Notes under the pieces: generated by a model
The model's input: the letters and a program-made list of their open reading frames with translations, nothing else
Told to the model about the DNA's origin: nothing
Databases searched by the model: none
Translations under genes and position numbers: made by a program
In this document: positions 2,191 to 14,259 of the stretch, piece by piece
How the letters are laid out: every line of letters begins with the position of its first letter
How positions within the stretch are numbered: position 1 is the first letter of the stretch
NCBI GenBank assembly: GCA_016125405.1
Contig: WGLW01000021.1
Coordinates: 62,001-126,000, forward strand
Reading direction: 5' to 3'
Origin: Alphaproteobacteria bacterium
GTDB taxonomy: Bacteria > Pseudomonadota > Alphaproteobacteria > Caulobacterales > Hyphomonadaceae
DNA: 64,000 bases

Positions 2191-3177
2191 CTAGCCGCCT
2201 GCATACCCGCCGATGATCGGAAGCACCTCGCCGGTGATGTAGCTGGAGCATTGGGGCGAGGCGAGGAAGACGAAGGCCGGGGCGATCTCTTCCGGCTGCG
2301 CCGGCCGCTTCATTGGCGTGTCCGCGCCGAACTTCGTGATATCGCGGGCCGACTTGTCCGCCGGATTGAGGGGCGTCCAGACCGGGCCCGGCGCAACAGC
2401 ATTCACGCGAATGCCCTTCGGAACCAGATGCGTCGCGAGGGATCGGGTAAAGGCATGAATGCCGCCTTTGGTGGTGGAATAATCCAGCAGGTCCTTGTTG
2501 CCCAACAGTCCGGTGACTGACCCGGTGTTCACAATGGCGCTCCCCGGTTTCATGTGCGGCACGGAGGCTTTCGACATGTGGTACATGCCATAGAGGTTGG
2601 TCTTCATCGTGCGGTCGAAATGCGCCTCGTCGAGGTCCTCGAAGTCGTCGACATGCTCCTGAAAGGCGGCGTTGTTGACCAGTACATCTAGCCCGCCCAG
2701 TTCCTCGACCGTGCGGGCTGCAGCCGTCTTGCAAAAGGCGGCATCGGCGATATCCCCCGACAGCAGGATGCATTTGCGACCCTCGTCATTGACGGCCAGC
2801 CGCGTTGTTTCCGCGTCTTCGTCCTCATTGAGATAGACGACCGCAACGTCCGCCCCCTCACGGGCAAACAGCACCGCCACGGACCTGCCGATGCCGGAAT
2901 CCGCACCGGTCACGATCGCGACCTTGCCCTCAAGCTTGCCTGACCCCTTGTAGAAAGGCGCGTCATACATGGGGGCCGGATCAAGGTCTTCCTCGGAGCC
3001 CGGCTTGGCCTGGTGCTGCCTCGGAAGCGGCGGTTCCGGATAATGGCGCGCGCCAGCCTGCATGGCGCCGCTTCTCGACCTTCCGTCGTCCCTGTCGGCA
3101 CTCTCCTTGGCGTCCACCTTTTCCTGTATTTTTCGGTAGGTTGCGGCGGCCGTATCCGCCTGGTCTTGTTTCGACAT
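2191..3177 (-). CDS. Short-chain dehydrogenase/reductase, YghA-like
   Basis: A 328-residue NAD(P)-dependent oxidoreductase. The Rossmann core begins near residue 80 with VAIVTGADSGIGRSVAV, followed by LVNNAAF, the catalytic serine in NTGSVTG, and the Y-x3-K pair in DYSTTKGG; the end SSYITGEVLPIIGGYAGG is typical of classical SDRs. The first 80 residues form a charged, proline-rich extension (ARHYPEPPLPRQHQ) and the segment DAPFYKGSGKLEGK, characteristic of the YghA/YhdF/YhxC group often linked to general stress. Substrate unknown. It is monocistronic, convergent with the peptidase gene and separated by 122 bases from the receptor gene end at 3300. Confidence 0.92.
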   Translation of the reverse strand: MSKQDQADTAAATYRKIQEKVDAKESADRDDGRSRSGAMQAGARHYPEPPLPRQHQAKPGSEEDLDPAPMYDAPFYKGSGKLEGKVAIVTGADSGIGRSVAVLFAREGADVAVVYLNEDEDAETTRLAVNDEGRKCILLSGDIADAAFCKTAAARTVEELGGLDVLVNNAAFQEHVDDFEDLDEAHFDRTMKTNLYGMYHMSKASVPHMKPGSAIVNTGSVTGLLGNKDLLDYSTTKGGIHAFTRSLATHLVPKGIRVNAVAPGPVWTPLNPADKSARDITKFGADTPMKRPAQPEEIAPAFVFLASPQCSSYITGEVLPIIGGYAGG

Positions 3178-3299
3178 GACTCAAGGCTCCGTGCGTTCAA
3201 CTTGAATGAACGAACGGCGGCCGGCCTTGCCTGTTCCCATGCCCTCTACCATTCCCTGCTCGACCCGGCGCCTGGCCGGGCAAGCGGAATCACGCCCTC

Positions 3300-5336
3300 C
3301 TAAAAGCCCACAGTGTAATCAACGTGCAGCGTTCGCCCGGTTCCGAGATTGCCGACCGGATATCGCGTGGTCGTCCCGTCGATGCGACCGCGTGCGTAAG
3401 AGGAATAGTATTCCTCATCGAACAGGTTCTCGATGCGAAGGCCGATGCGCTGTTTGCGAGAGCTGTCGAGATACCAGCGACCTGTCAGGTCCACGACGGT
3501 ATAATCGCCGTAGTTCGGGTCGGCGACGCCAGCCACGCTGGTGACGGTATCGCCGACATAGATCACCGATGCGCCGAGGCCGACCGGAAGGGTATCCGGC
3601 GCCCAGTCGATCTGAAGCTTCACCGTATCCTTGGGAATGTCGGGGATCTGGCCGATGCCGGAATTCTTCACTTTCGAGTCTGTGTGCGTCCAGTCGGCGC
3701 TGGCGGTAAAGGCGCCGAAGACGGCTGCGGCAAAGGCCTCGGCGCCATCGGTCGTGACGGGCGTACCGTTGTTGTCGAACGTGTCGTAGCAGCCTTCCGG
3801 GCCTACGGTGATGGAGCAGTCCGCCTGATCGAGATGGCCGGGCGCACCGGCGGGCCGGTCCTCCGGGATTTCAATGATCTGGATCAGGTCCTTGATGCGG
3901 CGGTGGAAGCCGGTGACCTCCCATGTGAACCAGTTGAGGCGGCCGCCCAGGGCGAGTTCGTAGTTCTCGCTCTTTTCGCCAACCAGGTTCGGGTTGCCCT
4001 GCTCGCAGCAATCGTCGTTGACGAAGAGTTCGTAGGCGTCCGGCAGGCGGAACGACGTGCCGGCCATGGTGCGCGCATAAAGCCAGTCGTTGATGTCGAG
4101 TTTGCCCGAGGTGTTCCACACCGTCGTCGTCTCGTCTTCCTTGGTTATGTTGGTGCGTACGCCGACAGCGAGGCTAAGTCCTTTCAGCACAGGCGCCCGG
4201 TAGCGCACCTGCGCAAAGGGCGCGGTTACGTATTCCGTCTGTTTCTCGATGCGGAAAACCTGGTCGCGGCCATTGTAGTTCTGATAATCGAGCCCGCCGA
4301 GCACATCGAGACTGGGCGTCAGGCTGTACTGGCCCAGCAGGTTGACGCCGTAATCCTTGTATCCCCAGAACTCGTTGTCATCCTGAACGATCAGCGTGCC
4401 GTCCGGCGGTTCGTTGTTGTCGATCTCGGTGAAGTGCGTCGTCCACCAATGGTAATAGCCCTTTACGAAGAACGAGAGCTTGTCGGTCGGCGTCCAGTCG
4501 ATCTTGGTGGAAAGAATATCCTCGACACGCTTGTTGAACTCCGTCGCCACCTGGCTGGGCGCAGCGAAGTCGAGTTTTGCGTCCGTGTGGATGTAGTTCA
4601 CCGAAGCTTTCAGCGCGTCGGAGAATTCGTATCCGTATTTGGCGCCCAGCGTGGTGACATTGTAGCCGCGATCCCGGTCTGTCGCGCTCGGCTGATAGTC
4701 CTGGTCGCGATAGGGCTTGATGCCGTCGGCCTCATCATGGCTGCCGAACAGGACATAGCTGGAATTGCCGAAGCTGCCGCTGTCGAAGGCGCTGATATGA
4801 CGGCCGTCATTGGTGTCGGTGCCGAGGCTGAATTCGCCTTCATGGTCGCGGGTAAAACCGCGCGTCACGATATTGATCGCGCCGGACGTCGCCGAGGTGC
4901 CGTAGAACAGGCTCTGCCCGCCCTTCAGAACCTCGATCTTGTCGATCATGTGCGAGGGAATCGTGTCGAGCGGCGTCGTCGTCGTGTAGAGCCGGTTCGA
5001 AATGCGCACGCCGTCCAGCAGCCAGATCACATCCTGCTTGCGACCACCGAGCAGCGACACATTCACATAGTCGAAAGCGCCGTTCTTCGGGGCGATGTAG
5101 AGACCCGGAACCTTCATCTGCAGCGCCTGCGACGCATCATCGAAACCGCCGTTCTTGATGTCTTCTGCGGTGACCGTCTCGACCCGCGAGCCATAGTCGG
5201 ACAATTCCGTGGCCAGCGATTCCTCGAGTTGCCCCCAAACCTCGACGACGTCGGTCGGCGAGGTCTGCGCAACGGCTGGCGAGCAGACAAGCATCATCGT
5301 GGCGAGCGCAGCGGTCGCGCGAAGCTGGTATTTCAT
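3300..5336 (-). CDS. TonB-dependent outer-membrane receptor
   Basis: A 678-residue receptor. Residues 1-23 are a signal peptide ending AVAQ. The plug domain carries LLDGVRISNRL and IDKIEVLKGGQSLFYGTSA, the usual plug signature, followed by a barrel rich in aromatic strands and the terminal GRTLHVDYTVGF. The cysteine pair CCEQGNPNL in an extracellular loop is unusual. The start is fixed by GGGAGGGA upstream of the ATG; a frame extending to 5750 has no start support. The gene lies downstream of, and co-directional with, the GntR-type regulator, with a TTGTATACAA palindrome in the gap. Substrate is not evident; the neighbourhood (CphA-like ligases) makes a peptide or peptide-derived ligand a reasonable guess, no more. 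Confidence 0.93.
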   Translation of the reverse strand: MKYQLRATAALATMMLVCSPAVAQTSPTDVVEVWGQLEESLATELSDYGSRVETVTAEDIKNGGFDDASQALQMKVPGLYIAPKNGAFDYVNVSLLGGRKQDVIWLLDGVRISNRLYTTTTPLDTIPSHMIDKIEVLKGGQSLFYGTSATSGAINIVTRGFTRDHEGEFSLGTDTNDGRHISAFDSGSFGNSSYVLFGSHDEADGIKPYRDQDYQPSATDRDRGYNVTTLGAKYGYEFSDALKASVNYIHTDAKLDFAAPSQVATEFNKRVEDILSTKIDWTPTDKLSFFVKGYYHWWTTHFTEIDNNEPPDGTLIVQDDNEFWGYKDYGVNLLGQYSLTPSLDVLGGLDYQNYNGRDQVFRIEKQTEYVTAPFAQVRYRAPVLKGLSLAVGVRTNITKEDETTTVWNTSGKLDINDWLYARTMAGTSFRLPDAYELFVNDDCCEQGNPNLVGEKSENYELALGGRLNWFTWEVTGFHRRIKDLIQIIEIPEDRPAGAPGHLDQADCSITVGPEGCYDTFDNNGTPVTTDGAEAFAAAVFGAFTASADWTHTDSKVKNSGIGQIPDIPKDTVKLQIDWAPDTLPVGLGASVIYVGDTVTSVAGVADPNYGDYTVVDLTGRWYLDSSRKQRIGLRIENLFDEEYYSSYARGRIDGTTTRYPVGNLGTGRTLHVDYTVGF

Positions 5337-5411
5337 CTGGGCGTCCCTCCCGGTTTGGCCGGCGGCGCACGGCCAGCACGACTCCAAGGGTGTGTAGGGC
5401 ATCGCGTCCAT

Positions 5412-5423
5412 ATTGTATACAAT
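5412..5423. promoter_or_regulatory. Perfect ATTGTATACAAT palindrome, likely GntR operator over the receptor promoter
   Basis: The 12-base perfect palindrome contains TTGTATACAA, the form commonly bound by FCD-type GntR regulators (TNGT/ACNA half-sites). It sits about 75 bases upstream of the receptor start and, read on the minus strand, its right half supplies a TACAAT that could serve as the -10 element. A GntR-type regulator is encoded immediately upstream, so local repression of the receptor is the simplest reading; this is inferred, not shown. Confidence 0.65.
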
Positions 5424-5460
5424 TTTGTAGGCGATACGGAGTGATCGCGCAGCCGTTCGC

Positions 5461-5475
5461 TGACGCAGTGCGTCA
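5461..5475. repeat. 15-base perfect palindrome TGACGCA-G-TGCGTCA
   Basis: A perfect inverted repeat with a one-base centre lies in the gap between the regulator stop and the receptor. No T-run follows on either strand, so it is not a convincing terminator; with a 1-base centre it would make a poor RNA hairpin and looks more like a protein-binding site. Nothing else in the gap explains it. Confidence 0.4.
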
Positions 5476-5499
5476 TGGAGCAATCGACGGCGGAAAAGG

Positions 5500-6225
5500 T
5501 CAGGCCGCTCGCGCGCGGCGCGTGCGTTGCGGTTCGACCGGCGGATCGGCCTCCCGTACACGATCGCCGTGCACCTGGAGCATGCGTGCGGCGGCGATGG
5601 CGGCCGACTTGGCGTCGTGTTGCGCAACAGCGTTGTAGACGTCGCGCGCCAATTGCGCCGCTTCCTTACGTCCGTGTGCGGTAGACAGGTCGTGCAACGC
5701 ACGATCGTGGTGCGGCACTGCGGGGGCGGCGGCGCGAACGCGCTCCGCAATCACAGGTCCGGCGCCTTCGGCCAACGCACGCGAAAAACCAACGCGCAGG
5801 TGTTGCATCTCGCGCGCATCGCCCCCTTCGTCGGCGACGTGCAGCATCATGTCGACGAAACGCCGCATCACATGAAGTTGGTCCGTTGTCGCGCGATTGG
5901 CGGAATGTCGTGCGCAAAGTGACGACAGCGCCGAATGAAGTTCGATCAGATCGGGAATTGCGTCCGAACGGACCGAACGAACGCGCGCGCCCTTGTTCAG
6001 GACAATGTCCGCCAATCCCTGAGCTTCGAGCCGTTGCAACGACGCACGCACAATCGTGCGCGAAACGCCATGTGCGTCCGCCAGTTCGACTTCGCGCAAC
6101 GGGGCGCCAGGTCGCAAATCGCCGAGATGGATCAACATCGCGAGTTCATCGGCGAGTTTCGTCGATTGCGACCCATCGTCCGAAACGGCGGGAAGCGGCA
6201 TATAGTGTTGATGACCACAACTCAT
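5500..6225 (-). CDS. GntR-family (FCD-type) transcriptional regulator
   Basis: A 241-residue regulator. The N-terminal winged helix is seen in LADELAMLIHLGDLRPGAPL, REVELADAHGVSRTIVRASL and LEAQGLADIVLNKGARVRSV, the canonical GntR pattern. The rest is helical like FCD ligand domains, with IPDLIELHSAL, the H/R-rich middle and DVYNAVAQHDAKSAAIAAARMLQVHGDRV near the end. The start at 6225 is preceded by GAGGA; an open frame runs up to 6348 and an internal ATG lies at 6201. Codon choice (many CAA, TTG, GCA, TCG) differs from most neighbours. It reads toward the TonB receptor and is divergent from the ATP-grasp/Mur ligase pair, so it probably controls both. FCD ligands are usually small organic acids or amino acids. 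Confidence 0.85.
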   Translation of the reverse strand: MSCGHQHYMPLPAVSDDGSQSTKLADELAMLIHLGDLRPGAPLREVELADAHGVSRTIVRASLQRLEAQGLADIVLNKGARVRSVRSDAIPDLIELHSALSSLCARHSANRATTDQLHVMRRFVDMMLHVADEGGDAREMQHLRVGFSRALAEGAGPVIAERVRAAAPAVPHHDRALHDLSTAHGRKEAAQLARDVYNAVAQHDAKSAAIAAARMLQVHGDRVREADPPVEPQRTRRARAA

Positions 6226-6273
6226 CGACAACCGGTCCTCGAAACGCAACGGCCAACCGTAACGGCATGTCAT

Positions 6274-6285
6274 CCTGCATACAAT
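6274..6285. promoter_or_regulatory. Degenerate copy of the TTGTATACAA operator in the divergent region
   Basis: CCTGCATACAAT matches the perfect palindrome at 5412-5423 in 9 of 12 positions, with the half-site ATACAAT intact. It lies about 50 bases upstream of the regulator start and about 110 bases upstream of the ATP-grasp start, where an autoregulatory and divergent control site would be expected. One such half-site can occur by chance, so support is moderate. Confidence 0.4.
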
Positions 6286-6314
6286 CCACCGCAAACGGCC
6301 TAGACAACGCCAGG

Positions 6315-6340
6315 ACCGAACAGACGAACTTCCGTTCGGT
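6315..6340. promoter_or_regulatory. Inverted repeat ACCGAAC-N12-GTTCGGT upstream of the ATP-grasp gene
   Basis: Two 7-base arms in perfect inverted orientation separated by 12 bases lie about 50-75 bases before the ATP-grasp start, inside the divergent promoter region. A third ACCGAA copy occurs at 6386-6391 next to the start. Could be an operator or chance given the CGAAC-rich local composition. Confidence 0.3.
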
Positions 6341-6391
6341 TCGCCCATAACGGGAGTTATTCGATGCCGCCGAACGTTATCCAGGACCGAA

Positions 6392-7357
6392 ATGCGGCTG
6401 GTTGATCCACTTCGCTACGCATGTGACGCGGCGACGGCGTTCGGGGCCGACGTTCGGGTGCTGGACGACAACGGCTATCTGATACGGATTTCCGTCAACG
6501 ACCGTTCGATCGTTCTGGGCGCCGGTCCGGTCAGTCCATTCTTCATCAACAACGCAACGGCGGTTTCGATCGCACGTGACAAAGGATTTTCATCAACGAC
6601 CTTCACCGACCGGGGCCTGCCGGCCATTCCGGGAGAGGTTTTCTTTGCACATTCAAGGCGTGCGGCCCTGCGCGCGCCCGGCCGCGAGGCCGCCGACGCC
6701 CTTGCCCACGCCGCCCGCCTGGGCTTTCCCGTCTTCGCCAAGCCCTGCACCGGCGCCCGGGGAAATTACGCCGAGGTCGTCCGCGACGCCGCCGCCCTTG
6801 AGGATTACATCGGCCGCCTCGCGGTGGACTTCGAGGCCTTCCTGATCCAGCCGGTCGTCCAGGGCGTCGAGCACCGGGTGCTGATTCATGACGGCCGGTC
6901 CATCTTCCATGCCGTGAAGCAGCCCGCCGCCCTCACCGGGGATGGCGTTTCCACCCTCTCAGCCCTGCTGGACCGCCTCAACGCCGGCTTCCCGGGCAGC
7001 GGCCTCTCGCCGTGGCCGGCCAGCGTCATCGCCGACGAGCCGCAACGCATCCTGGCCGCGGGCGAGCGGTTTTCCCTCCCTGGCCGCCGCAATCTCAGCG
7101 CCGAGGGGGACATCGCGAGCTTCAGCACGGAGGTTCCACCCGTCCTCCACGCCCTCGCCCGCGACGCCGTGGCCGCTGTCGGCCTGCGGTTCGGCGCCGT
7201 GGACATCTTCGACGTTTCGCCCCGGAGTGACCTTGGCGACCTGCTCATCATCGAGGTGAACGGCAATCCCGGCCTCCGCACGCTGGAGCTGGCGGGTCGC
7301 TCCGACATCATTCGCGAGATCTGGACGGACATGCTTCGCGAGAGCCTTGGGACATGA
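6392..7357 (+). CDS. CphA-like ATP-grasp amide ligase
   Basis: A 321-residue ATP-grasp enzyme, predicted to form an amide bond through an acyl-phosphate. ATP-binding lysine K117 lies in FPVFAKPCTGARGN; HRVLIHDG and LTGDGVSTLSALL match the central strands of cyanophycin-synthetase ATP-grasp domains; NLSAEGD and the metal-binding IIEVNGNPGL (E288, N290) complete it. It lacks the CphA N-terminal domain and the fused Mur ligase module, but the next gene supplies a Mur/FolC-type ligase, with the ATG of that gene overlapping this TGA. The first ~90 codons use GCA, CGT, TCA and ACG like the neighbouring regulator, whereas the remainder has the GCC/CTG-rich style of the window. The product is unknown; it could be an amino-acid polymer, a short isopeptide or a modified peptide. 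Confidence 0.8.
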   Translation: MRLVDPLRYACDAATAFGADVRVLDDNGYLIRISVNDRSIVLGAGPVSPFFINNATAVSIARDKGFSSTTFTDRGLPAIPGEVFFAHSRRAALRAPGREAADALAHAARLGFPVFAKPCTGARGNYAEVVRDAAALEDYIGRLAVDFEAFLIQPVVQGVEHRVLIHDGRSIFHAVKQPAALTGDGVSTLSALLDRLNAGFPGSGLSPWPASVIADEPQRILAAGERFSLPGRRNLSAEGDIASFSTEVPPVLHALARDAVAAVGLRFGAVDIFDVSPRSDLGDLLIIEVNGNPGLRTLELAGRSDIIREIWTDMLRESLGT

Positions 7358-8652
7358 TGTACGGCCTGCCGAAATTCGGCGACGGCATCGGACTGTCCCG
7401 CATCCGGCGCTTCATGCTGGCGCGCGGCCTCGACCGGATCGGCGCGCGCTCCATCGTCGTCACCGGATCGAACGGCAAGGGATCGACGGCGCGCCTGCTG
7501 GCGGCGGCGCTTGGGGCCCGGGGCCAGCGCGTCGGCCTCTTCACCTCGCCGCACCTGTTCGACATCCGCGAGCGCTTTGTTGTCGGCGACGCCCGCATCT
7601 CACAGGCCGACTATGAGCGCCACGCAACGACCGTGCTCGCCTACACCGACACCCTGCCGGCGGGCGACCGGATGGGCGGGTTCGAGTTTCTCTTCCTGCT
7701 GGCCCTGTTGTGGTTCGAGGAGCAGGCGCCCGATGTGATCGTCTGGGAGGCCGGCATCGGCGGACGCTACGATCCCGTGCGGACGCTGAAGTCGCGGCTG
7801 AGCCTGCTGACCGGCCTGGAGCTGGAGCACACGCAACTGCTGGGCGCCACGGAAGAACTGATCGCCTACGACAAGATCGACGCGCTGGCGCCCGGCGGCC
7901 GGCTGATCGTCTCGCCCTCCGTGGCGGCGGACCATCGCCAGCGCATTTCGGACTACTGCGCCCTGTCCGACCGGAGGCCGCTGTTCGTCTCCGACGACTT
8001 CACGGTTGCAGATATCGACAACCGGCCGGACGGAACCCGCTTCCAGGCCTCGCAGCCGGGCGGCGCGGCGCTGCAGGTGCATCTGAACTTGATCGGCGCC
8101 CATCAGGCCGACAACGCCCTGACGGCCTTCCTCGCCGCCTGCGCGTGGCTGGGCGAGACGCCCGACCTTTTCGGCGCCGACAACCGCCTCAACCCCATGC
8201 TCGCCGCGATGGGCGAAACCAGCTGGCCCGGGCGGCTGGAGCATGTGGCCTCCGGCCCCGACCTCTGGATCGATGTCGGCCACACGCCCCATGCGCTCGA
8301 CCTGGTGACGTCCGCCTATCTCGATTTCGCACCCGCCGAGCGGACGCTGGTGGTGTTCGGCGTCTCGGCCGTGAAGGAGGTCTCGCGGATCGCGGAGATC
8401 GTGGCCGGGCGCTTCGACCATTTCATCCTGACGCGGGCCCACAAGGGGGGCGCAGATATCGACAGCTTCGCCAGCGCCTTCGCCGGACGGGACGTGACCA
8501 TCGAACCGGACATCGCCAAGGCGGCGCAGATGGCCCGCGCACGCGCATCGGCCGAGGGCCTTGGCGTGCTTGCGCTGGGCGGCATGTTCCTCGCCGTGGA
8601 GCTGCAACACGCCTGGACCGGCGGCGATCCGGCGGAGCTGGAATTCTTCTGA
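7354..8652 (+). CDS. FolC/Mur-type ligase, partner of the ATP-grasp enzyme
   Basis: A 432-residue ligase with the FolC arrangement: P-loop VVTGSNGKGSTA (K42), FTSPHLFDIRERF, the central HTQLLGATEELIAYDKI and the C-terminal DVGHTPHALD. Such enzymes add an amino acid to a carboxylate through an acyl-phosphate. True folylpolyglutamate synthase is normally paired with accD or other folate genes; here the start codon overlaps the stop of a CphA-like ATP-grasp gene, so the pair mirrors the two catalytic modules of cyanophycin synthetase as separate proteins. ATGATG at the start leaves the choice of first Met open by one codon. Convergent with the frameshifted gene that ends 12 bases on. FolC activity on folates cannot be excluded from sequence alone. 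Confidence 0.82.
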   Translation: MMYGLPKFGDGIGLSRIRRFMLARGLDRIGARSIVVTGSNGKGSTARLLAAALGARGQRVGLFTSPHLFDIRERFVVGDARISQADYERHATTVLAYTDTLPAGDRMGGFEFLFLLALLWFEEQAPDVIVWEAGIGGRYDPVRTLKSRLSLLTGLELEHTQLLGATEELIAYDKIDALAPGGRLIVSPSVAADHRQRISDYCALSDRRPLFVSDDFTVADIDNRPDGTRFQASQPGGAALQVHLNLIGAHQADNALTAFLAACAWLGETPDLFGADNRLNPMLAAMGETSWPGRLEHVASGPDLWIDVGHTPHALDLVTSAYLDFAPAERTLVVFGVSAVKEVSRIAEIVAGRFDHFILTRAHKGGADIDSFASAFAGRDVTIEPDIAKAAQMARARASAEGLGVLALGGMFLAVELQHAWTGGDPAELEFF

Positions 8653-12256: not shown

Positions 12257-13348
12257 CTATTTCGCAGCCTTGAGTTTTGTGCGTTTCGGCGGCTGGAGCT
12301 GGGAGCCATCGAGCGAATCATCCTCGCCCTGGAACATCTTGCGGACGTCCACGGTGGAGCGCTTGCCGAGGCTGTTGAAATTCGCCTTCAGCCAGTCGTC
12401 GGCGGCGCTGCGGCCGTGGTCGAACAGCATGTCGATGAAGCCGGTCTCGACGTTGAACTTCGAGGAGGCGCCGAGCTGGGACAATTCCGCCTCGTCGCTG
12501 ATCGTGTGCACCAGCATGCGGCGGTAGCCGGTGCCCTCTAGCCGGCCCGCCTCGATGAGGCGGGTGACGAAATCGACGGCGCGCAGGTCACGCAGGAGCG
12601 AGGCATTGAAGGTGATCTCGTTGATGCGGTTGATGATGTCGCGCGCGGTCTTCGGGGCGCCGGGGCGACGGATCGGATTGATCTGCACCAGCACCACATC
12701 ATCGGAGACGCAGTTCTCGAACAGCGGCCACAGCGCGGGATTGCCGGTGAAGCCTCCGTCCCAGTAGGGCACGCTGTCGATCTCCACGGCCTGGAACAGC
12801 CAAGGCAGGCAGGCGGACGCCATGACGTGGTCGGCCGTAAGCTCCGACTTGTCCCAGACTTCGGCGCGGCCGGTTTCGACATTGGTGGCCGACACGAACA
12901 GCTTCAGCCTGGATTTCCGCACCTTGTCGAAATCCACCAGTTCGACCAGCAGGTCGCGCAACGGATTGAGGTTGAGCGGATTGAAATCGTACGGGCTGGC
13001 GATGCGGGTGATGAGATCGAACATCACGAAGGCGGGCGAGGTGTCGAGGTTCCAGCCGGAGAGCATGGCCTCGATCGGCGAACGCCTGAGCGGGCTTTGC
13101 CCGGCTTCGCGCAGGACGCCCTCCCAGAATTCGCGGAGAGACTGGCGGGCGTGTTCGCGGTCGCCATCGACCATGCCGTCGGCCAGCGCCACGGCGTTCA
13201 TGGCGCCCGCCGACGCGCCGGTGATCGCCTCGATCTCGATGCGGTCGTCTTCCAGCAGCCGGTCGAGGACGCCCCACGAGAAGGCGCCATGCGACCCGCC
13301 GCCCTGCAGAGCGAGGTTGATGAGTCGGGGTTCGGACTTTGCAGCCAT
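12257..13348 (-). CDS. Patatin-like phospholipase
   Basis: A 363-residue lipid acyl hydrolase using a Ser-Asp dyad. The oxyanion strand is LALQGGGSHGAFSWGVL, the nucleophile is in ITGASAGAMNAV (GxSxG), and the aspartate is in WDGGFTGNPAL (DGG). No signal peptide or membrane segment is seen, so it is cytosolic or peripheral. The C-terminal tail is rich in lysine and proline (QLQPPKRTKLKAAK). This architecture (patatin core plus about 150 residues, DUF3734-like) is common in proteobacteria, sometimes near polyhydroxybutyrate genes, which are absent here. It starts 116 bases downstream of the murI stop, on the same strand. Confidence 0.92.
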   Translation of the reverse strand: MAAKSEPRLINLALQGGGSHGAFSWGVLDRLLEDDRIEIEAITGASAGAMNAVALADGMVDGDREHARQSLREFWEGVLREAGQSPLRRSPIEAMLSGWNLDTSPAFVMFDLITRIASPYDFNPLNLNPLRDLLVELVDFDKVRKSRLKLFVSATNVETGRAEVWDKSELTADHVMASACLPWLFQAVEIDSVPYWDGGFTGNPALWPLFENCVSDDVVLVQINPIRRPGAPKTARDIINRINEITFNASLLRDLRAVDFVTRLIEAGRLEGTGYRRMLVHTISDEAELSQLGASSKFNVETGFIDMLFDHGRSAADDWLKANFNSLGKRSTVDVRKMFQGEDDSLDGSQLQPPKRTKLKAAK

Positions 13349-13464: not shown

Positions 13465-14259
13465 CTAGAGATCGACCACCCGGACGTCGGCATAGCCGAA
13501 GCGGGCCAGCACCGGGGCCATGGCGGCGAGGTTGGCGTGACCGCCGGTGACATAGGCGACCGGGGCGCCGCCGGGATCGTTGCCGGTGCTGGCCGGCGCA
13601 ACGCGCAGGGCCTGGCGCGCCACCGCCTCGCCAGTATCGATGAGCGTCACGGCGGGCGGACAGGCGGCGGCGATGGCCTCCCGGATGAGCGGGAAATGCG
13701 TGCAGGCCAGCACGACGACATCGATGCGGGCGCCCTCGGGCCCATCGAACATCGGCTGGACGGCGTAGGCGACCGCATCGGCGTCGGGCGCCATGCCGCG
13801 CACCGCCCGCTCGGCCATATCGACCAAACCCGCCGATCCGCGCCGGATGACGGTCTTGCCGGCAGCGAACTGGCGTTCGAGGTCGTCGAGATAGGCGCGC
13901 TTCACCGTGCCGGGCGTCGCCAGCACGCCGATAACGCCGGTGCGGGTGAGGTCTGCGGCGGGCTTGATCGCGGGAACGGTGCCGACGACGGGGATCGCCA
14001 CACACGCGCGGATATCGGCGAGCGACAGGGTGGAGGCCGTGTTGCAGGCGATGACCAGCACGTCCGGCCGGGCGATATCGACGAGGGACGCGCACAGGCC
14101 CGGCAACCGGACGCGCAGTTCGTCGTCGGTTTTGACGCCGTATGGGAAGAAGCCCGCATCGGCGGCGTAATCCACCGTCCAGTCCGGCGCGGCCCTGCGC
14201 AATTCTGTTGCAATCGTGAGCCCGCCCACGCCCGAATCGAACACCAGCGCCCGCGTCAT
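13465..14259 (-). CDS. murI: Glutamate racemase
   Basis: A 264-residue cofactor-independent racemase that makes D-glutamate for peptidoglycan. The two catalytic cysteines are in VLVIACNTAST and VLACTHFPLI; FDSGVGGLTI and ADAGFFPYG near the N-terminus and DTGEAVARQ near the end are further family signatures. Length is standard. The gene is divergent from the potassium channel gene, with 82 bases between them, and precedes the patatin gene in the same direction, though with a gap large enough for separate transcription. Confidence 0.95.
   Translation of the reverse strand: MTRALVFDSGVGGLTIATELRRAAPDWTVDYAADAGFFPYGVKTDDELRVRLPGLCASLVDIARPDVLVIACNTASTLSLADIRACVAIPVVGTVPAIKPAADLTRTGVIGVLATPGTVKRAYLDDLERQFAAGKTVIRRGSAGLVDMAERAVRGMAPDADAVAYAVQPMFDGPEGARIDVVVLACTHFPLIREAIAAACPPAVTLIDTGEAVARQALRVAPASTGNDPGGAPVAYVTGGHANLAAMAPVLARFGYADVRVVDL

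Follow-up and report, generated by a model that had tools for sequence, protein, structure and literature searches.

A co-inherited pair of ATP-dependent ligases, one resembling the CphA G domain and one of the FolC branch, in Caulobacterales

The locus at positions 3300-8652 of the window (the whole stretch analysed here, 64,000 nucleotides of the Hyphomonadaceae contig WGLW01000021.1) raises the question of what is made by two coupled ligases that recall the two catalytic modules of cyanophycin synthetase (CphA), and whether the regulator and receptor genes beside them serve the same end. CphA is a single chain of about 870 residues in which N, G and M domains are fused, and its product is multi-L-arginyl-poly-L-aspartate. 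The locus lacks that fused architecture and holds two open reading frames (ORFs) of 321 and 432 amino acids (aa) in an assembly of 3.86 Mb (56 contigs, 99.99% complete). The gene order is TonB receptor (-), GntR/FCD regulator (-), ATP-grasp ligase (+) and Mur-type ligase (+). An earlier sequence-only reading had proposed these four genes, the ATP-grasp motifs and a coupling of the ligase genes by an ATGA overlap, all of which were confirmed; the ligase junction reads ...ACATGATGTAC, with a 4-base ATGA overlap. The two ligases are:

6392-7357, + strand: ligase 1, a stand-alone ATP-grasp carboxylate-amine ligase of CphA G-domain type, 321 aa (by fold and profile)
7354-8652, + strand: ligase 2, a FolC-type Mur ligase, 432 aa (by TIGR01499, fold and tree)

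The occurrence of both ligases was assessed in 398 genomes of the order with profiles for the ATP-grasp (A1), for ligase 2 (A2) and for MurX, a further ligase described below. The best five (A1) or best four (A2, MurX) first-look candidates per genome were scored, and score limits were fixed after the gap in the scores had been seen. Ligase 2 occurs in 56 of the 398 genomes, with scores of at least 176 bits; the best match below these reaches 145 bits, and matches at or below that value are presumed to be true FolC. The ATP-grasp is present in 53 of these 56 genomes, counting one in which its gene is cut by a contig end beside the Mur gene (G328, 104.7 bits) and one in which it is divided between two contigs (G097), and leaving out G021 (110.8 bits), whose candidate groups with other ATP-grasps. 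In 52 of the 53, ligase 1 lies directly upstream on the same strand, with the matched stretches at most 262 bases apart (these are related genomes, not independent cases). The adjacency of the ATP-grasp and Mur genes is not due to chance, and the co-inherited two-ligase unit postulated from the window is borne out. Ligase 2 alone, the ATP-grasp alone, or ATP-grasp and MurX together were found in 0 of the 398 genomes among the best four or five candidates of each.

The remaining three of the 56 genomes (G098, G257 and G265) carry MurX, at 897, 253 and 236 bits respectively, the next best match being 79 bits. MurX is a FolC relative by profile that retains the P-loop, Glu156, His183 and Lys198 and has a short C-terminal part; its grouping with ligase 2 in the Mur tree is weak (81/63). 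In G098, a congener of the window genome, MurX occupies the place of the ATP-grasp between the GntR gene and ligase 2, overlapping the Mur gene, with the receptor, patatin and downstream genes retained. In G257 and G265, which belong to another family, MurX and ligase 2 are in divergent orientation, with a patatin-like ORF beyond. A fourth genome, G099 (73% complete, outside the 398), has MurX together with ligase 2 and patatin; one extra gene precedes MurX, and the GntR gene is cut by the contig end. A family scan with the window ligase 1, in which all listed candidates were scored, found no ATP-grasp in G098 or G099. At the latter locus the MurX gene shares 4 bases with a 364-aa ORF (L206 813-1907) that matches no Pfam family at E 0.01.

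MurX in these four genomes would represent the functional replacement of one step. Together, the co-inheritance of the ligases and the replacement of ligase 1 constitute the main result, suggesting two amide-forming steps in one pathway, in which the two ligases are likely to act. If true, one chemical step has been conserved while its enzyme was replaced.

The ligase 1 translation contains FPVFAKPCTGARGN, GDGVSTL, NLSAEGD and IIEVNGNPG. It matches parts of the CphA, RimK, LysX and similar NCBIfam models, all far under their cut-offs (the cyanophycin synthetase model gives a partial match of 70.6 bits, cut-off 850), and no Pfam family at E 1e-3. In a sequence-profile search CphA chains rank first (4.9e-40). 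AlphaFold2 models were built from 40 (ligase 1) and 41 (ligase 2) sequences. The model of ligase 1 (mean predicted local distance difference test score, pLDDT, 95.1) has its best fold match in CphA1 residues 161-485 (Z 23.0, root-mean-square deviation (rmsd) 4.5, 292 aligned), with ArgX near-tied, within 1 (Z 22.8, rmsd 2.7, 244 aligned), followed by LysX (Z 21.4) and RimK (Z 19.9). A description of CphA gives its G domain as residues 162-487 and names as contacts Arg309 with the primer carboxylate, Asn394 with the Asp side chain and Glu215 with the primer Arg side chain, Arg323 and Arg458 also being among the Asp/primer contacts of the domain (PMC9427784). In a profile alignment, Arg309 and Asn394 correspond to R162 and N234 of ligase 1, both invariant (40/40 rows), Arg323 to K176, Glu215 to S59, and Arg458 to R296, which is Arg in 11 of 14 A1 rows and varies outside the genus. 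This pattern suggests that acyl-phosphate chemistry, perhaps with an acidic amino acid as substrate, has been kept and that the contact with the cyanophycin primer has not.

An ATP-grasp tree separates 12 other ATP-grasps from the ligase 1 family at 98/99; deep forks within the family have weak support, and the paired rows, which need four changes, are interspersed with unpaired ones. Two rows of this tree, CphA_L083 and CphA_L084, on a branch 5.3 long, appear to be miscut and were not used. A plasmid search gave no DNA match and 18 protein matches below 30% identity, 15 of them annotated as cyanophycin synthetase. Among named genomes the window ligase 1 protein alone found no relatives and profile A1 was needed; this profile recovered 36 named loci, of which nine titled Hyphomonadaceae bacterium and one titled Hyphomonas are all among the closest.

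Ligase 2 scores 208.4 bits with TIGR01499, the curated FolC subfamily model, above its cut-off of 162.65. The best fold for its model (mean pLDDT 94.5) is that of folylpolyglutamate synthase (FPGS)/FolC (Z 41.2, 396 aligned, rmsd 2.8), ahead of MurC (30.6) and CphA (26.4). A Mur tree of 55 rows has a 99/97 branch that sets apart 25 ligase 2 proteins and a 98/96 branch that sets apart 19 FolC rows, including those of the window genome and of E. coli; a 100/99 branch places ligase 2 on the FolC side and the two CphA M domains opposite, with other Mur ligases. Judged by this tree, ligase 2 belongs to the FolC branch as a clade of its own outside true FolC. The locus had been read as a split cyanophycin synthetase; this description suits the ATP-grasp, which resembles the CphA G domain, but not the Mur enzyme, which falls in the FolC branch, nor the lost primer-Arg contact residue.

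The Mur protein is not the only FolC-type enzyme of its genome either: the true FolC lies on another contig (C50), downstream of an AccD-like ORF (AccD by reading), and reaches 310.8 bits, where ligase 2 has 208.3. True FolC accompanies ligase 2 in 12 of 15 congeners (the 15 genomes of the genus include the window genome), scoring at least 293 bits, and 17 of 18 further genomes have it with scores of at least 289. In two congeners with ligase 2, G091 and G104, no true FolC reaching 290 bits was found; their assemblies are fragmented and the absences are perhaps gaps. In a single-contig genome (G078, C1:3184337-3185561) the FolC match spans two frames, through either a frameshift or an error of assembly. 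The FolC P-loop, E146, H173, K188, D302 and H305 are retained throughout, or almost throughout, the 25 ligase 2 rows. Seven positions differ between the 19 FolC rows and the 25 ligase 2 rows, namely T122 (T/S) to G, N157 to R, D172 to E, G190 to D, Q291 to E, N306 to T and S403 to G (E. coli numbering). T122 and F124 of E. coli FolC presumably contact the pterin; F124 is retained in the ligase 2 clade. Automatic names such as cyanophycin synthetase and FolC would misannotate genomes carrying the pair.

Upstream of the ligases, on the opposite strand, lie the regulator and the receptor, with two candidate operator sites:

5500-6225 (longest ORF 5500-6348), - strand: GntR/FCD transcriptional regulator (PF00392, PF07729)
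3300-5336, - strand: TonB-dependent receptor, BtuB/Cir-like (PF07715, Plug; PF00593, barrel)
5412-5423, no strand: perfect palindrome ATTGTATACAAT, probable GntR/FCD operator of the receptor gene (genome-wide uniqueness and recurrence in G098)
6276-6285, + strand: half site TGCATACAAT in the gap between the GntR gene and ligase 1 (recurrence in G098)

Both Pfam domains of the regulator score above their cut-offs. Its start is more likely at 6225 than at 6348, as relatives begin with M(S/N)CG there, and an 816-aa receptor ORF reaching 5750 is taken as a start-codon artefact. The receptor matches the solved chains of BtuB and the colicin I receptor at E 1e-10. An M20 peptidase-family protein is encoded upstream of the locus (724-2181).

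A GntR homologue stands at the locus in at least five of the 15 congeners, namely the window genome, G096, G103, G098 and G099; in G102 the contig stops too close for a judgement, and in G096 and G099 it stops at the GntR gene or close by, so that the locus is not readable beyond. In G103 the GntR match lies in two frames (L039 10214-10886) and the copy may be broken. An orthologue of the receptor (59% identity) was found at the locus solely in G098, which brings the receptor at the locus to two of 15 congeners; ten of the other 13 have relatives of 41-44% identity elsewhere and three have none at E 1e-60. The four genes had been expected to occur together across genomes, and this largely fails: the receptor is at the locus in the two genomes mentioned, one of which has MurX instead of the ATP-grasp, and GntR in the five or more, while the two ligases stay together nearly throughout the order.

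The palindrome ATTGTATACAAT has a single occurrence in the 3.86-Mb assembly, upstream of the receptor gene, against about 0.014 expected from the window base composition. G098 has it twice, once ahead of the receptor orthologue; the other 13 congeners have no copy. A link between receptor and ligases had been drawn earlier from position and shared operator-like sites; one between receptor and regulator is supported by this orthologue and its conserved operator. Of those sites, the palindrome held up as perfect and unique in its genome, but TGCATACAAT is only a half site and the window has three matches to the palindrome at up to three mismatches, against 3.2 expected by chance; the weight of TGCATACAAT comes from its recurrence in G098, between the GntR and MurX genes. 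The corresponding gap of G103 holds TGCATAGAAT. The second ATTGTATACAAT of G098 (L263 1501-1512; C95:38009-38020) lies between a small haem-protein-like ORF (by reading) and a gene for a beta-lactamase-family serine hydrolase; it is upstream of the hydrolase gene, which may also belong to the regulon. The link to the receptor is real, though rare, and from the operator pattern the receptor would belong to the circuit of the regulator in two genomes and not to the core.

Two further features lie downstream of the pair in the window:

12257-13348, - strand: patatin-like protein (neighbour of the pair in 10/15 congeners; other genes intervene in the window)
13465-14259, - strand: MurI glutamate racemase (neighbour in at least 13/15 congeners; sole family match in the genome; probably housekeeping)

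Throughout the genus, these patatin-like and MurI genes lie beyond ligase 2 on the opposite strand. In eight loci of family f3, the genes after ligase 2, on its strand, encode a patatin, a small protein, a flavin adenine dinucleotide oxidoreductase of the DAO family and, by reading, an acyl-CoA dehydrogenase-like protein. A transglycosylase-domain gene also lies downstream in this family. Five loci of family f4 have instead a flavin monooxygenase, a short-chain dehydrogenase/reductase (SDR) and an alpha/beta hydrolase after ligase 2. The patatin types differ, that of f1 being on the opposite strand (the window gene) and that of f3 on the same strand after a 38-base gap (L126 10853-12085). MurI was rejected as a dedicated partner, being the sole match to its family in the genome, as were two polyamine-type genes beside it in the genus, which we take to be agmatine deiminase and N-carbamoylputrescine amidase from reading rather than profile and which are not next to the pair in f3 and f4. 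No third partner common to all compared loci was seen besides the two ligases.

Outside the order, a scan of 385 genomes of the class revealed six further genomes with the ATP-grasp at E <1e-40. Ligase 2 adjoins it in three (G448, G530 and G633), and a fourth locus (G474) is cut by a contig end. Among the named loci, the pair is present in L071, L072 and L075. In L072 (Candidatus Achromatium palustre) a 274-aa ORF with no Pfam match at E 1e-3 (2747-3571) overlaps the ATP-grasp gene by 4 bases. In L068 (7938-11935, a Bradyrhizobiaceae metagenome-assembled genome) the ATP-grasp gene overlaps a phosphoenolpyruvate carboxylase gene by 4 bases and no Mur ligase of the ligase 2 type adjoins it.

The explanation we favour, with a probability of about 0.65, is a two-step ligase module that makes a small peptide-like or isopeptide metabolite or cofactor and has secondarily been wired to an importer here. 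Its core would be a two-gene, two-step ATP-dependent amide-ligation module, in which ligase 1 would turn a carboxylate into an acyl-phosphate and couple it to an amine, probably that of an acidic amino acid, and ligase 2 would attach a second amine, probably of an amino acid, at a carboxylate on that growing molecule. The resulting compound would be neither cyanophycin nor, probably, folate. In the window genome and one relative, the GntR/FCD protein probably also controls the TonB receptor via ATTGTATACAAT, and this receptor may import the product, its metal complex or a precursor. The data show the conservation and co-inheritance of the genes, their kept catalytic residues and predicted folds, and four genomes with MurX instead of ligase 1; the shared molecule, the order and chemistry of the steps, all substrates of both ligases and the import step are what we infer.

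Several observations weigh against this explanation. G214 is a doubtful case: its ligases are on different contigs, and its ATP-grasp, which at 164 bits is the weakest member, falls with an unpaired relative in the tree. The absences in the order-wide scans are not proof, as only the best four or five candidates per genome were scored. Outside the order, the ATP-grasp has no ligase 2 nearby in G513 (L256) and G412 (L257), and no Mur ligase beside it in the named loci L068 and L077. The neighbours vary by family, so that context points to no single pathway, and a receptor link in two of 15 congeners has little bearing on the core product.

FolC and RimK/MptN-type ligases extend glutamate tails, and a folate-related accessory system, in which ligases 2 and 1 would lengthen the glutamate tail of folate or another pterin by gamma and then alpha links, is possible and disfavoured. 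It agrees with the score of ligase 2 above the FolC cut-off and with the proximity of ligase 1 to the ArgX, LysX and RimK folds. Its best argument comes from G530 (L255 6882-11541), where an AccD-like ORF (by reading), the true FolC and the two ligases, 1 before 2, stand in a row on one strand, the only place among the loci examined where the pair touches folC. However, a separate true FolC is found in most genomes (the 12 of 15 congeners and 17 of 18 further genomes above), and the seven changes in the ligase 2 clade affect FolC-conserved positions. A true split cyanophycin-like polymerase, whose enzymes would alternate on the backbone and side chains of a storage polymer, would account for the extent, fold and motifs that ligase 1 shares with the CphA G domain and for the presence and coupling of both CphA catalytic types. 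It sits poorly with the grouping of ligase 2 with FolC rather than with the CphA M domain, the absence of an N domain, the exchange of Glu215 for Ser59 and of Arg323 for Lys176, and the occurrence of the cyanophycinase family PF03575 in only one of 15 genus genomes, which is not the window genome; we regard it, and a cyanophycin product with it, as unlikely.

Least probable, and in our view very improbable, is a ligase pair for cell-wall recycling or modification acting on muropeptides, to which the Mur-type fold, the MurI gene nearby in the genus and the f3 transglycosylase-domain gene might point. MurI, as its sole family match in the genome, is probably housekeeping, the f3 and f4 neighbours are mostly oxidoreductases, patatin and hydrolase, five further Mur-type genes besides FolC (by reading MurC, D, E, F and Mpl) are present in the window genome, and ligase 2 has no match to the Pfam Mur catalytic N-terminal domain at E 1e-3.

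A further-reaching version of the favoured two-step module is tentative. According to it, Caulobacterales and a few other bacteria would have an undescribed small-molecule pathway whose first ligase is exchangeable between the unrelated ATP-grasp and P-loop Mur folds. In this lineage its product, or the metal complex of it, would be imported via a TonB receptor of its own that shares the GntR/FCD switch, and would be a new metallophore or vitamin-like compound. No literature describing the pair was found by title or start of abstract in an open library, outside which most subscription papers lie; the pair (53/56) and its different-fold replacement (3/56) define a pathway with a product named in none of the literature found.

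Among known systems, the poly-gamma-glutamate synthase PgsB/CapB is likewise a Mur-like ligase of about 400 aa, and a relative of ligase 2 (L126) matches the PgsB model weakly (4e-7), the window ligase 2 giving no match to this profile at E 1e-3. With FolC/folylpolyglutamate synthase, ligase 2 shares the fold, the P-loop and the catalytic Glu, His and Lys positions, but it forms a separate clade with seven conserved positions altered, has an ATP-grasp partner and usually co-exists with a true FolC. The RimK, LysX and ArgX ligases are, like ligase 1, ATP-grasps with nearby folds, and add amino acids to carboxylates, whereas the profile and aligned length of ligase 1 favour the CphA G domain. 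Although ligase 1 stands alone, without an N or M domain, and has lost the Glu215 contact, with Lys for Arg323 and a variable counterpart of Arg458, it has in common with the G domain of CphA1 the same ATP-grasp fold, the GDG and NLSxGG motifs and invariant counterparts of Arg309 and Asn394.

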